64,000 nucleotides of DNA from Salinigranum halophilum. Its GTDB lineage: Archaea; Halobacteriota; Halobacteria; Halobacteriales; Haloferacaceae. Below, piece by piece: positions 38,067 through 43,269 of the stretch (position 1 is the stretch's first letter; the number at the start of each line of letters is the position of its first letter). The position numbers were made by a program, and so were the translations under genes. The stretch is taken from positions 124,001 through 188,000 of the forward strand of contig NZ_ML660182.1 in assembly GCF_007004735.1 (NCBI RefSeq), given 5' to 3'. Below the pieces are notes generated by a model. That model was not told the origin of the DNA. It did not search any database and saw only the letters and a list, made by a program, of their open reading frames with translations.

Positions 38067-38759
38067 TCAGACGAACGCGCCGGCGGCGTCGGCGAGGAAC
38101 AGCAGACCGAATCCGGCGAGCACGAGCGCCGAGAGTGCCGTCACGACGGGCGTAAACGCCTCTACCCGCCGCTCGGCCGTGACGAGCGCCGCCGGGAAGC
38201 CGGTGACCCACACGAGAATGCCGCCGAAGAAGCCGACGATGAGCGCCGGGCTTCCCTTCTCGACGACGAGGAGCCCCGCGAGGTCACCGCCGACGTAGGG
38301 CGTCTGTGCGAGCACGTCGAACTGTCCGGATTCGAGCAGCGCGACGCCGATGGTGAGCCAGAAGAGAATCTGGTAGGGGTTGGCGATGGCGAGGACGAAC
38401 GCCTTCCGGAAACCCGCACCCGTCTCGCCGCCGTCGGCGGCCGCCTCCTCCGTCGGGGTGAGCGACTCGCCGATCTCGCGGGCGGTGCCGTACGCGAAGT
38501 ACAGCATGAGCAGGCCACCAACGCCGACCATCACCGCGCGTACCGTCGGGAAGCGTTCGACGAACGTGACGACACCGAGAAGCGAGAGGACGAAGAACGT
38601 CGCGTCGGCCGTCATCGCCCCGAGGCCGGTCCGGAACCCGGCCGTCCAGCCACGGAGGACGCTCTCCTCCGCGATGACCGCGTTCATCGGGCCGGGCGGG
38701 GCGGCGAGCGCGAGTCCGAACACCACGCCGGCGCCGAGTGAGACGAACACGTCCTGCAT
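38067..38759 (-). CDS. LysE family amino-acid exporter
   Basis: A 230-residue inner-membrane protein with six helices. The start GVVFGLALAAPPGPMNAVIAEESVLRGW contains the conserved PGP of LysE/RhtB exporters, and the second half holds FVLAIANPYQILFWL (the N-P repeat). The central loop is acidic. Substrate (lysine, homoserine or other) unknown. It lies downstream of the GDT1 gene with a 57-base gap on the same strand. Confidence 0.88.
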   Translation of the reverse strand: MQDVFVSLGAGVVFGLALAAPPGPMNAVIAEESVLRGWTAGFRTGLGAMTADATFFVLSLLGVVTFVERFPTVRAVMVGVGGLLMLYFAYGTAREIGESLTPTEEAAADGGETGAGFRKAFVLAIANPYQILFWLTIGVALLESGQFDVLAQTPYVGGDLAGLLVVEKGSPALIVGFFGGILVWVTGFPAALVTAERRVEAFTPVVTALSALVLAGFGLLFLADAAGAFV

Positions 38760-38816: not shown

Positions 38817-39536
38817 TTAGACGAGGGCGACGACCGCGTTCGCGACCGCCGAGACGGCCGTCTCCCACACCGAGAAGCCGGTGGCGAGTGCGAGAACCGT
38901 ATCGGCAGCGAAGAACGCGAACAGCGCCGCGCCGGCGAGGTGCGCCTTCCGAACGTCGAACCGGTGGGAGAAGCGATGGAAGACGTAGGCGTTCGCGATG
39001 CTCACCGGCACGATTGCGAGCATCTCGCCGACCCATATCCCCGGATTCGCCCCGTACTGGACGGCGAGGCCGATGGTCACGAGCTGGGTCTTGTCGCCGA
39101 ACTCACCGGCGGCCATCATCGCGAAGATGGGGAGGAAGCTCCCGAGACCGTCGGTGTCGAGGTCCCGCCCGAACAGCGTCGGGACGTCGACGTCGAGTGT
39201 CGGCCCGCCGTCCGTCTGTACCGAATCGCTCCCGTCCGGTCCGACGCTCGTTCCCCCGCGCTCGGGAGCGGCGCGAACGAGCAACACGGCGAAGAGCCCG
39301 AACAGCACGGCTGTGATGCCGTCGAGGACGGCCGGCGGGAGCATACCCTTCACCGCCGCGCCGAACCAGATTTCGAGCGCCGTCCACCCGGCGAACGCCG
39401 TCCCCGCGGCGGCGACGACGACCTTCGGGTCGTATCGCGTCGAGAGGCCGGCGATGATGAACTGGACCTTCTCTCCGGGGAGGACGGCGAGCTGGGCGAC
39501 GAACGCCACCGTGGCGACTTCGAGTAGCCCGACCAT
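38817..39536 (-). CDS. TMEM165/GDT1 (UPF0016) metal transporter
   Basis: A 239-residue membrane protein, a two-repeat cation transporter; family members move manganese or calcium and some bacterial ones export manganese. The second repeat has an intact signature EFGDKTQL, whereas the first reads LPGEKVQF with E and D changed. The acidic loop between repeats is long (about 95-135). The start codon overlaps the stop of the DtxR-family gene (TGATG), so the two are co-translated, which supports metal homeostasis. Confidence 0.9.
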   Translation of the reverse strand: MVGLLEVATVAFVAQLAVLPGEKVQFIIAGLSTRYDPKVVVAAAGTAFAGWTALEIWFGAAVKGMLPPAVLDGITAVLFGLFAVLLVRAAPERGGTSVGPDGSDSVQTDGGPTLDVDVPTLFGRDLDTDGLGSFLPIFAMMAAGEFGDKTQLVTIGLAVQYGANPGIWVGEMLAIVPVSIANAYVFHRFSHRFDVRKAHLAGAALFAFFAADTVLALATGFSVWETAVSAVANAVVALV

Positions 39537-40252
39537 CAGCCCTCGACCTCCGGCCCGTACTGGGGGTCTCCGTCGGTGGCAGGGACGACACGGATGGAGC
39601 GGGCGACGGCCTCCGGGAGCGACTGCTCGCGGCCTCCCTCGCCCACACGGACGGTCACCATCCCGAACGGTGCCACGTCGACGACCTCCAGGCGGGTCCC
39701 GGGTGTGATGCCCGCGTCGGCGAGATACTGCAGTTCCTCCTCGTCGCGGTCGGAGACACGTGTGACGGTGACGCGGTCGCCGACGGGATGTTCGTCCAGC
39801 CGCGTCGAGTCGTCCGTGCCGAGCGGCGTGAGGTCGGCGCTCGGAATCGGGTCGCCGTGGGGGTCGACCTCGGGGTCGCCCAGCGCCTCGGCGACCCGGC
39901 GCTCGAACTCCTCGGAGATGTGATGTTCGAGGGCGTCGGCCTCGTCGTGGACCTCGCTCCAGTCGTAGTCGAGGTGCTCTGCGAGGTACGCCTCCAGGAG
40001 TCGGTGGTGGCGGATGACCTCCAGGGCGACCGTCTCGCCCTCGCGCGTCAGCTCTGCTCCCTTGTACTTCTCGCGCGCGACGAGCCCGCGTTCTTCGAGC
40101 TTTCCGAGCATACTCGTCACCGTCGGTGGGGTCTTCGAGAGCGCGTCGGCGATGGCCGACGTCGCCACCGGCGGGCCGTCTTCGGTCTGCAGCGTGTAGA
40201 TGGCCTTCAGGTAGTCTTCCATCACGTCGCTGAGCACGTCGGACTTCGCCAT
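39536..40252 (-). CDS. DtxR-family metal-dependent repressor
   Basis: A 238-residue regulator. Residues 1-70 are a winged helix (MEDYLKAIYTLQ, TSAIADALSKTPPTVTSMLGKLEERGLV), 70-145 the dimerisation and metal-binding region (HHRLLEAYL, EADALEHHISEEFE, with conserved His and Glu ligands), and 160-235 a FeoA/SH3-like domain. The family senses Mn or Fe; the GDT1 partner favours manganese. A palindrome in its promoter (40286-40304) could be its operator. It is the first gene of the set with GDT1 and perhaps the LysE exporter. Confidence 0.93.
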   Translation of the reverse strand: MAKSDVLSDVMEDYLKAIYTLQTEDGPPVATSAIADALSKTPPTVTSMLGKLEERGLVAREKYKGAELTREGETVALEVIRHHRLLEAYLAEHLDYDWSEVHDEADALEHHISEEFERRVAEALGDPEVDPHGDPIPSADLTPLGTDDSTRLDEHPVGDRVTVTRVSDRDEEELQYLADAGITPGTRLEVVDVAPFGMVTVRVGEGGREQSLPEAVARSIRVVPATDGDPQYGPEVEG

Positions 40253-40285
40253 CTCACCCGGAGATACCAGTCCGACGAGAAAGAA

Positions 40286-40304
40286 GTTTGGGATGTCTAA
40301 ACTC
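40286..40304. promoter_or_regulatory. candidate DtxR-type operator (19-bp interrupted palindrome)
   Basis: AGTTT and AAACT arms are separated by 9 bases (GGGATGTCT), 34 bases before the ATG of the DtxR gene. The size and position fit a site where the repressor would block its own transcription. The half-sites are short, so chance cannot be excluded. Confidence 0.4.
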
Positions 40305-40330
40305 TACTGTACCCCCTTCGAAACGACGGC

Positions 40331-41491
40331 TCAAATCCCCTGACCCATCAGGTGCGACCGGAGGATGTCCGCCGTCTTCACACCCGCCTCGGTGTTGACG
40401 ACCACGAGCGTCGCGTCCTCGTCGAACTCGTCGGCTAGCGCGTCGGCGGCCGCCGCCGCGGCACCGCCGGCAGAGCCGACGTCGACGGCGGTGGTCTGTG
40501 CGGCGGCGACGGCGCTTCCGAGGATCGCGTCGTCGTCGACGGTCACGACGCGTCCTCCGGTCGCGTCGACCGCGTCGACCACGAGGTCACCGCCCGTCGG
40601 GTCGGGAATCTCCAGTTCGCCGACGATGGTGTCCGGCTGGTTCCACGCCTCCACCTCGCGGCCGGAGTCGAACGCCGCCGCGATGGGGGCACAGCCGGTC
40701 GGCTGGGCGGCGACCACCCGCGGCAAGTCGTCGACGAGCCCGAGTTCGTCGAGCTCGCGGAATCCCTTCACGAGGCCGTAGACGACCTCGCCCGTGCTCG
40801 CCGGGACGAACACCGCGTCGGGGACACACCCCTCGCCGACGAGTTCGTAGGCGATGGTCTTGTAGCCCTCGTGGCGAACGGGGTTGTCGAACTCCTGGAG
40901 CGTGAACCAGTCGGACTTCAACTGCGTCTGTAGCGCCTCGACGGCGTCGGGGTAGCGGCCGCCGGCGACGCGCATGTCGCCGCCGTGGACGTTGGTCATC
41001 GCCTTGTTCGGGAACGGCGCGCGCGAGGGGACGAACGCGTACGACCGGAGGCTCGCCCGTCCCGCGTAGGCCGCCCCGGACTGTCCACTGTTGCCGGCCG
41101 ACGCGTGTGCGACGAGGTCGGCCCCGGCGTCGACGGCGGCCGTGACCGCGAGCGAGAGCCCACGGTCGAGTACCGTCCCGGTCGGGTTCCGCCCCTCGTC
41201 CTTGACGAACAGGGAGTCGACACCGAGTTCGTCGGCGAGCGCCGGCGCGTCGACGAGCGGCGTCCCGCCCTCGGCCGCGCTCACGCCGGATTCGAACGGC
41301 AGGAGGTCGGCGAAGTCCCACACCGAGCGGGCGTCCGCGAGGAACGCGTGGTCCCAGTCGACGGCGTCGACGTCGTAGACGGGGTCGACCGGCGCCCCGG
41401 CCTCGCTCGGGCCGGTCCGCGTGGGGTCCGCAGCGAGTTCCTCACCAGTCGCGGTACAGCGGAGCGCCCGGAACGCGTCGCTCTGATCCAT
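40331..41491 (-). CDS. threonine synthase-like protein lacking the PLP-binding lysine
   Basis: A 386-residue fold-type II PLP-enzyme relative. Its layout matches threonine synthase: LRCTATGEEL start, the substrate strand GGTPLVDAPALADELG, LFVKDEGRNPTG, then HASAGNSGQSGAAYAGRA (the Ser-Gly-Asn cofactor loop) and a distal PASTGEVVYGLVKGF. However, the PLP lysine, which should follow at residue 108 in an FKDRG motif, is Leu (TGTVLDRG). The DNA there is unambiguous. It may bind another ligand, or use another lysine. The ATG at 41491 (MDQSDAFRALRC) is chosen. Confidence 0.88.
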   Translation of the reverse strand: MDQSDAFRALRCTATGEELAADPTRTGPSEAGAPVDPVYDVDAVDWDHAFLADARSVWDFADLLPFESGVSAAEGGTPLVDAPALADELGVDSLFVKDEGRNPTGTVLDRGLSLAVTAAVDAGADLVAHASAGNSGQSGAAYAGRASLRSYAFVPSRAPFPNKAMTNVHGGDMRVAGGRYPDAVEALQTQLKSDWFTLQEFDNPVRHEGYKTIAYELVGEGCVPDAVFVPASTGEVVYGLVKGFRELDELGLVDDLPRVVAAQPTGCAPIAAAFDSGREVEAWNQPDTIVGELEIPDPTGGDLVVDAVDATGGRVVTVDDDAILGSAVAAAQTTAVDVGSAGGAAAAAADALADEFDEDATLVVVNTEAGVKTADILRSHLMGQGI

Positions 41492-41991: not shown

Positions 41992-43269
41992 ATGGACGAG
42001 GAGCGATCCGTCGTGGTGTGCGGTGCGGGACTGGCCGGACTGGTGGCCGCGCGTCGACTCGCCGCCGCCGGCGCCGACGTCACGGTGTACGAAGAACGCG
42101 AGACTGTCGGGGGGCGGGTCCGGTCACGCGAACACGCAGGGTTCACGCTCGACCGCGGCTTTCAGGTGCTCTTCACCGCCTACCCGGCCGCTCGCCGGGA
42201 ACTCGACCTCGACGCGCTCGACCTTCGAAGCTTCACCCCCGGCGCGGTCATCGCCCGCCCCGGCGAGCGGTCGGTCCTCTCGGACCCGCTTCGCGACCCC
42301 ACGTCGCTCTTCGAGTCGCTGTTCAACCGCGAGGTGACGACGAGCGACAAACTCCGGACGCTGGCGCTCCGACAGGACCTCGCCAGCAAGCCGCTCGACT
42401 CGTTCTTCACGGGGGCCGACACCACCATCCGCGAGTACCTCTACGACTGGGGCTTCTCCGAGAAGTACGCCGAGAACTTCGTCGCGCCCTTCTACGGGGG
42501 TATCACGCTCGACCGGTCGTTGTCGACCTCCAGGCGCGTGTTCGAGTACACCTTCCGGATGCTGAGCGACGGGCAGACGGCAGTCCCCGCAGCGGGGATG
42601 GGCGCGATCGCCGACCAACTGGCCGCCAGTGCCGAGGCGGCGGGCGTCGATATCCGGACCGACTCGGTGGTGTACGAAGTCTCCGCCGAGAGCGACGGCG
42701 TCACGCTCGACGTCGACGGTGGCCGGGTCGACGCCGACGCCGTCGTCGTCGCCACCGACCCCCGAACCGCCGCCGAGTTGACGGCCGTCGACTCGATTCC
42801 GACCCGCGCGCGGCCGTCGACCACCCAGTACTACCGGCTCCCGGACGGGACGGACCTCGACACGAAAAAACGCATCCTCCTCAACGCCGAGTCGGCCGCG
42901 CCGAACGCCGTCGTCCCGCTCTCACAGGTGGCACCCGAGTACGCGCCCGCCGACGCCGAACTGCTGAACGCGACGTTCCTTGGTGACGAACCGCTGTCGA
43001 TGACCGACGAGGAACTGGCCGACCAGACGCGTGCGGCGCTGCGGTCGTGGTACCCCGAACGGCGGTTCGACTCGCTGGAACCGCTCGAAACCGACCGCAT
43101 CGAGTTCGCGCAGTTCGACCAGCCGCCGGGCATCCACGAGGGCCTGCCCGACGCGCGCGACCCCGACGGTGCGGTGTATCTCGCCGGCGACTACACCCAG
43201 TGGTCGTCGATTCAGGGCGCACTGGAGAGCGGGCGCGTCGCGGCGGCGGCCGTCCAGGACGACTGCTGA
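41992..43269 (+). CDS. FAD-dependent amine oxidase/desaturase-like oxidoreductase
   Basis: A 425-residue flavoprotein with the N-terminal dinucleotide fold VVCGAGLAGLVAARRLAAAG (about 8-27), the RVRS-type GGRVRSR block, and the C-terminal FAD-binding VYLAGDYTQWSSIQGALESGR. The family includes phytoene desaturases and protoporphyrinogen oxidases, and the substrate here is unknown. It lacks a signal peptide. Convergent with the E1 alpha gene after four bases. The ATG at 41992 fits the nucleotide-fold distance. Confidence 0.88.
   Translation: MDEERSVVVCGAGLAGLVAARRLAAAGADVTVYEERETVGGRVRSREHAGFTLDRGFQVLFTAYPAARRELDLDALDLRSFTPGAVIARPGERSVLSDPLRDPTSLFESLFNREVTTSDKLRTLALRQDLASKPLDSFFTGADTTIREYLYDWGFSEKYAENFVAPFYGGITLDRSLSTSRRVFEYTFRMLSDGQTAVPAAGMGAIADQLAASAEAAGVDIRTDSVVYEVSAESDGVTLDVDGGRVDADAVVVATDPRTAAELTAVDSIPTRARPSTTQYYRLPDGTDLDTKKRILLNAESAAPNAVVPLSQVAPEYAPADAELLNATFLGDEPLSMTDEELADQTRAALRSWYPERRFDSLEPLETDRIEFAQFDQPPGIHEGLPDARDPDGAVYLAGDYTQWSSIQGALESGRVAAAAVQDDC

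Follow-up and report, generated by a model that had tools for sequence, protein, structure and literature searches.

The locus and its conserved surroundings

The window, i.e., the whole stretch of 64,000 nucleotides of Salinigranum halophilum DNA that was analysed, carries on its minus strand a gene for a threonine-synthase-like protein, in which leucine stands in the place of the lysine that forms the Schiff base with pyridoxal phosphate (PLP). The gene and its conserved neighbours, the latter assigned by Pfam and synteny, are as follows:

40331..41491, minus strand: lysine-less threonine-synthase-like protein of 386 aa (P0001), from the open reading frame and its translation
Residues 71-367 of this protein: PALP domain (Pfam)
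39536..40252, minus strand: DtxR/SirR-type metal-dependent repressor, downstream neighbour (Fe_dep_repress, Fe_dep_repr_C and FeoA)
38817..39536, minus strand: member of the GDT1/TMEM165 divalent cation antiporter family (GDT1)
38067..38759, minus strand: LysE-type translocator (LysE)
41992..43269, plus strand: FAD amine-oxidoreductase-like gene, upstream and divergent (Amino_oxidase)

The preliminary description of this DNA had called the reading frame open, and on the minus strand it is so from start to stop; internal stops interrupt the plus strand at 40331-41491. Pfam finds PALP alone in the protein (216.9 bits, cutoff 35), and the best NCBIfam model is the threonine synthase PRK08197, whose 242.8 bits remain under the cutoff of 303; the thrC model gives 111.8 bits, under its cutoff of 167, so that the protein falls short of both threonine synthase equivalogs. 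At its N-terminus (window 41360-41491, minus strand) only one Cys is left of a zinc-ribbon-like CxxC...CxxC motif that is invariant in the lysine-bearing relatives and gone from about a third of the Haloferacaceae copies.

Downstream of the lysine-less gene and on the same strand follow the SirR-type, GDT1 and LysE genes and then an iron-containing alcohol dehydrogenase (Pfam), which is putatively a glycerol-1-phosphate-dehydrogenase-like gene; a cold-shock protein gene lies upstream, divergent like that of the FAD oxidoreductase. Ahead of the SirR/DtxR-type gene, at 40253-40330, stands GTTTAGACATCCCAAAC; this imperfect inverted repeat is possibly the operator of that gene. Since this promoter-like repeat precedes the SirR gene, co-transcription of the latter with the lysine-less gene is not assured. 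A search of a plasmid collection returned a single, distant match.

These neighbours recur around the lysine-less copies of most Haloferacaceae and also around lysine-bearing copies of other families (for instance L084, L085, L092, L095 and L100 with the lysine, and L083, L101 and L107 without it). Because the surroundings of both types are the same, the copies are, on the evidence of gene order, two states of one positional orthologue, whose location is older than the loss of the lysine.

The cofactor site without its lysine

The positions of the cofactor site that are discussed below, the last three located from residue numbers, are:

41168..41170, minus strand: codon 108, CTC (Leu), at the place of the PLP Schiff-base lysine
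41072..41098, minus strand: asparagine loop ASAGNSGQS, residues about 132-140, largely kept
40778..40801, minus strand: old PLP phosphate loop PASTGEVV, residues 230-237 (PTGGGVGL in the lysine type)
40616..40618, minus strand: codon for Glu292

Leu108, within NPTGTVLDRG, aligns with the Schiff-base lysine in the FKDRG portion of NPTGSFKDRG of solved threonine synthases (2d1f, 2zsj and 6cgq), so that the protein lacks the Schiff-base lysine of the S/T-F-K-D-R-G motif; the codon and the alignment together confirm the replacement that had been noticed initially. Three sets of copies were aligned, namely 50 syntenic-type copies of Haloferacaceae, 54 other lysine-less copies and 98 lysine-type relatives. 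Column 108 is lysine in 98/98 of the lysine-type relatives and in 0/50 of the Haloferacaceae copies, and CTC is three base changes away from a lysine codon. A sequencing error, which had been named as a possible refutation, is ruled out by the orthologues (the three Salinigranum congeners have L, L and H) together with the three changes required. Leucine itself is not fixed: it occurs in 32 of the 50 Haloferacaceae copies, followed by Y (7), V (5), I (2), H (2) and, as singletons, F, T or A. Because residues of such unrelated chemistries all occur among these orthologues, position 108 is unconstrained in Haloferacaceae and holds no replacement catalytic residue. With a position so variable, a catalytic part for Leu108 or His108 in place of the lysine was rejected.

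The preliminary description confined the loss to the lysine, and in this respect it was only partly right, since the changes extend to the phosphate loop and to the threonine that aligns with the N1 contact of PLP. The Gly-rich loop is GGGVG in 98/98 lysine-type relatives and has become T233, E235 and L/V236 in Haloferacaceae, the protein in the window having PASTGEV where the enzymes have PTGGGVG. Five residues that are invariant in the lysine type (F107, G233, V235, G236 and G292) are replaced in Haloferacaceae, and T367, which we take to be aligned with the threonine contacting the PLP pyridine nitrogen, is lost in 30% of the copies. The cofactor loop described as Ser-Gly-Asn is indeed kept, although it truly reads S-A-G-N within ASAGNSGQS; its Asn134 is found in 46/50 Haloferacaceae copies and in only 20/54 of the other lysine-less copies. 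Most residues of what are presumably the structural and substrate-side motifs of threonine synthases (NPTG, DRG and the RHEG.KT region) are conserved in the lysine-less protein, which suggests that a ligand site is still present.

New invariant residues have arisen as well. Glu235 and Glu292 are each present in 50/50 Haloferacaceae copies, with T233 and G300/G301 nearly invariant, while position 292 is Gly in 98/98 lysine-type relatives. It is this pair of acidic residues at old cofactor-site positions, along with the asparagine loop that most Haloferacaceae copies keep, that would speak for an enzyme independent of the lysine, working with non-covalently held PLP, with a migrated lysine, or with a new metal or acid-base site on Glu235 and Glu292. 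We consider such an enzyme improbable, given that the phosphate loop is gone, residue 108 is unconstrained and the two glutamates are not conserved in other lysine-less lineages. A migrated lysine was ruled out, since the only conserved lysines of the lysine-less copies (97, 163, 211 and 372) are all common to the lysine type and none is new. The different chemistry that had been offered as one of two options is therefore disfavoured.

Repeated loss of the lysine

Copies were sampled from the haloarchaeal families designated f1, f4, f6, f7, f10, f12 and f17. Copies with and without the lysine number 9 and 22 in f4, 4 and 5 in f6, 19 and 12 in f7, and 14 and 11 in f12; all copies of f17 bear it. 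On a tree of 226 rows, from which active-site columns were excluded, seven state changes are counted, at least five of them forced by supported branches, and a careful tree of 64 rows gives eight, at least six being forced. A single lysine-less clade is rejected on the latter tree (p-AU 1.3e-104). Neither this recurrence nor the positional orthology with lysine-bearing genes had figured in the preliminary description. In a quick 112-row tree the lysine-less copies had formed one clade, and this single origin was abandoned after denser sampling without the active-site columns. Change counts alone give no direction; the lysine is the ancestral state because all outgroups bear it.

The clearest cases are losses at the tips of lysine-bearing groups, i.e., L177 (R at residue 108), L154 (N), L271 (A) and L225 (L), in each of which the phosphate loop is changed and, in L271 and L225, the asparagine loop also. 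Their end branches are longer than those of the lysine-bearing sisters (0.17 vs 0.03 for L177, 0.21 vs 0.063 for L271 and 0.056 vs 0.017 for L154), which also fits partial relaxation after a recent loss. Part of the mosaic in f4, f6 and f12 could stem from recombination that replaced the gene in place; the tip losses could not. Three copies of Halomarina (genus g97 of f4; L038, L255 and L260) have Lys108 within the lysine-less group, but Asn134 is replaced by Asp and the phosphate loop is broken; they are probable chance reversions. Two lysine-less copies of f12, L108 and L109 (genus g39), have long branches and an unsure placement in the tree.

The single-copy syntenic gene itself is hardly ever lost. 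It was found in each of the 57 good genomes of f7, though 12 of the 31 copies examined in that family are lysine-less, and in 22/22 good genomes of f12, and its absence was almost never met among good genomes of the families sampled. At least 15 Haloferacaceae genomes have a lysine-bearing copy at another place and still retain the lysine-less one in the syntenic position. The non-syntenic lysine-bearing copies L113-L128 (e.g., G042:C1:2214171-2215355) fall into a single clade together with a copy from Halomarina, a pattern suggestive of horizontal re-acquisition while the lysine-less gene was kept.

Other threonine synthases in the genome

The search for another threonine synthase, proposed at the outset, was answered by a canonical lysine-bearing ThrC (L187) on another contig of the Salinigranum halophilum genome, where serA- and serB-like genes adjoin it. 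Besides L187 the genome has another ThrC-like gene with the lysine, so that threonine synthesis is provided for separately; a closer lysine-bearing paralogue of the lysine-less gene is absent. Homologues of the canonical ThrC were found in 97/99 of the relatives' genomes. Identity of the lysine-less gene with Haloferax thrC3 (HVO_2969), which we take to adjoin serA, was rejected, because in the genome studied here the counterpart beside serA is the canonical enzyme with the lysine. Disruption of thrC3 alone by a transposon gave Haloferax volcanii a requirement for Gly/Ser/Thr (PMC4300041), so the other thrC-type genes of that species do not replace it.

The near universality of the canonical ThrC means that a partner would always be at hand, if the lysine-less protein were a non-catalytic subunit that hetero-oligomerises with the ThrC encoded beside serA/serB, in the manner of SPTLC1 with SPTLC2 in serine palmitoyltransferase. 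Threonine synthases are oligomeric, and the fold predicted for the lysine-less protein is intact, which agrees with such an arrangement. However, the two genes are not co-localised, and obligate pairing with a closer lysine-bearing paralogue is excluded in Salinigranum halophilum, which has none; on balance we judge this arrangement unlikely.

Fold and selection

The fold-type II layout that had been read from the sequence is borne out by the PALP match and by an AF2 model, in which an intact threonine-synthase fold is predicted with confidence throughout (pLDDT 97.3, pTM 0.95); the nearest PDB folds found by Foldseek are all threonine synthases. In the model residue 235 lies in the first turn of the helix that follows the old phosphate loop. 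A lysine-type relative was modelled with a lower pLDDT (85.8) and weak stretches near the cofactor loops, alignment depths being different for the two; the contrast would fit a need for PLP to order the lysine-type site and not the lysine-less one, and little weight is given to it.

Pairwise dN/dS of the lysine-less gene among four Salinigranum species is 0.17-0.21, which falls inside the 0.11-0.24 spanned by its neighbours (LysE, GDT1, SirR and the FAD gene); values for G1PDH and E1a were unusable in some pairs, since local hits were out of frame. Such figures, far under 1, largely refute a decaying duplicate that is retained by chance alone. The longer branches after loss in the tip lineages would suit decay, and so would the smaller number of columns conserved at ≥95% (98 vs 157 in the lysine type), but frames are open across about 50 genera, the new residues are fully fixed and the gene is almost never absent from good genomes, all of which make decay very hard to credit. 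The preliminary description would have been refuted by lysine-bearing orthologues of a decayed copy; some orthologues do bear the lysine, and dN/dS reveals no decay of the copy in the window.

A probable PLP-free pseudoenzyme

The protein is best read as a PLP-free pseudoenzyme that arose in place from a threonine-synthase-like gene with the lysine and retains a non-catalytic role. We regard this as likely, because the lysine is absent from all 50 aligned Haloferacaceae copies and other cofactor residues are lost with it, the fold is kept, purifying selection is measurable and catalytic paralogues coexist; the first of the two options raised in the preliminary description is thus upheld, and the regulatory role attached to it is possible.

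What sequence of events may have led to it? The sequences show that three elements of the cofactor site were lost together, namely the lysine of the Schiff base, the loop for the phosphate and the threonine that aligns with the pyridine-nitrogen contact. Since loss of the lysine recurs without loss of the gene, we infer that the ancestor already served another, non-catalytic purpose, such as the binding of a small ligand or of a partner protein, which would have allowed the PLP chemistry to be dropped repeatedly while the gene was kept. In Haloferacaceae Glu235 and Glu292, to judge from the alignment and secondary structure, probably occupy the site that the cofactor has left, or lend it stability. 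The outcome would be a cofactor-independent protein that binds a ligand or partner, in the simplest case one that senses or modulates amino-acid metabolism. A bolder version, which we put forward only tentatively and hold to be rather doubtful, is that an essential non-catalytic function predates the loss of catalysis, so that one lineage after another turns the protein PLP-free, and that the Haloferacaceae site was rebuilt around Glu235/Glu292 as a new one for a ligand or a metal.

Comparison with known systems

The closest known relatives are the lysine-bearing haloarchaeal copies of the PRK08197 type (NF006050), positional orthologues from several haloarchaeal families that are about 45-53% identical and share the neighbours and the fold. 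Such copies score 377 and 382 bits against the cutoff of 303 and have K108, GGGVG and T367, whereas the protein in the window, at 242.8 bits, lacks K108 and the phosphate loop; a lysine-less copy of Haloferax mucosum reaches 294 bits. The canonical ThrC L187 belongs to the same PALP superfamily and is about 34% identical, but it has the NPTGSFKDRG lysine, scores 296 bits with thrC TIGR00260 (cutoff 167) and is far more conserved across relatives. The nearest folds, with TM-scores of 0.71-0.88 by query (Foldseek), are those of 6nmx (B. subtilis), 1uin (T. thermophilus), 2d1f (M. tuberculosis) and 2c2b (Arabidopsis), which unlike the protein studied here are PLP enzymes with the lysine.

The open-licence literature that was searched holds no description of a lysine-less threonine-synthase family or of recurrent conversion at one locus as seen here, and no phenotype or partner data for the lysine-less protein. 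Many haloarchaeal genes that are automatically labelled 'threonine synthase' probably carry the wrong name, a point of consequence when metabolism is modelled in Haloferax and its relatives. Pseudoenzymes are usually viewed as having arisen in one past event. In the present case both lysine states of one positional orthologue occur within the same families, and several apparently independent conversions provide natural replicates, from which one may ask which function of an enzyme survives once its chemistry is dropped.

Lysine-less pseudoenzymes with PLP folds are already known from other fold types. SPTLC1, antizyme inhibitor and ColD (with His for Lys) have lost the Schiff-base lysine and kept the fold, in a role that is non-catalytic or altered. 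These proteins are of fold types I or III, whereas the haloarchaeal protein is of fold type II, and it differs from them in the repeated independent loss of the lysine and in having no conserved residue as its substitute.
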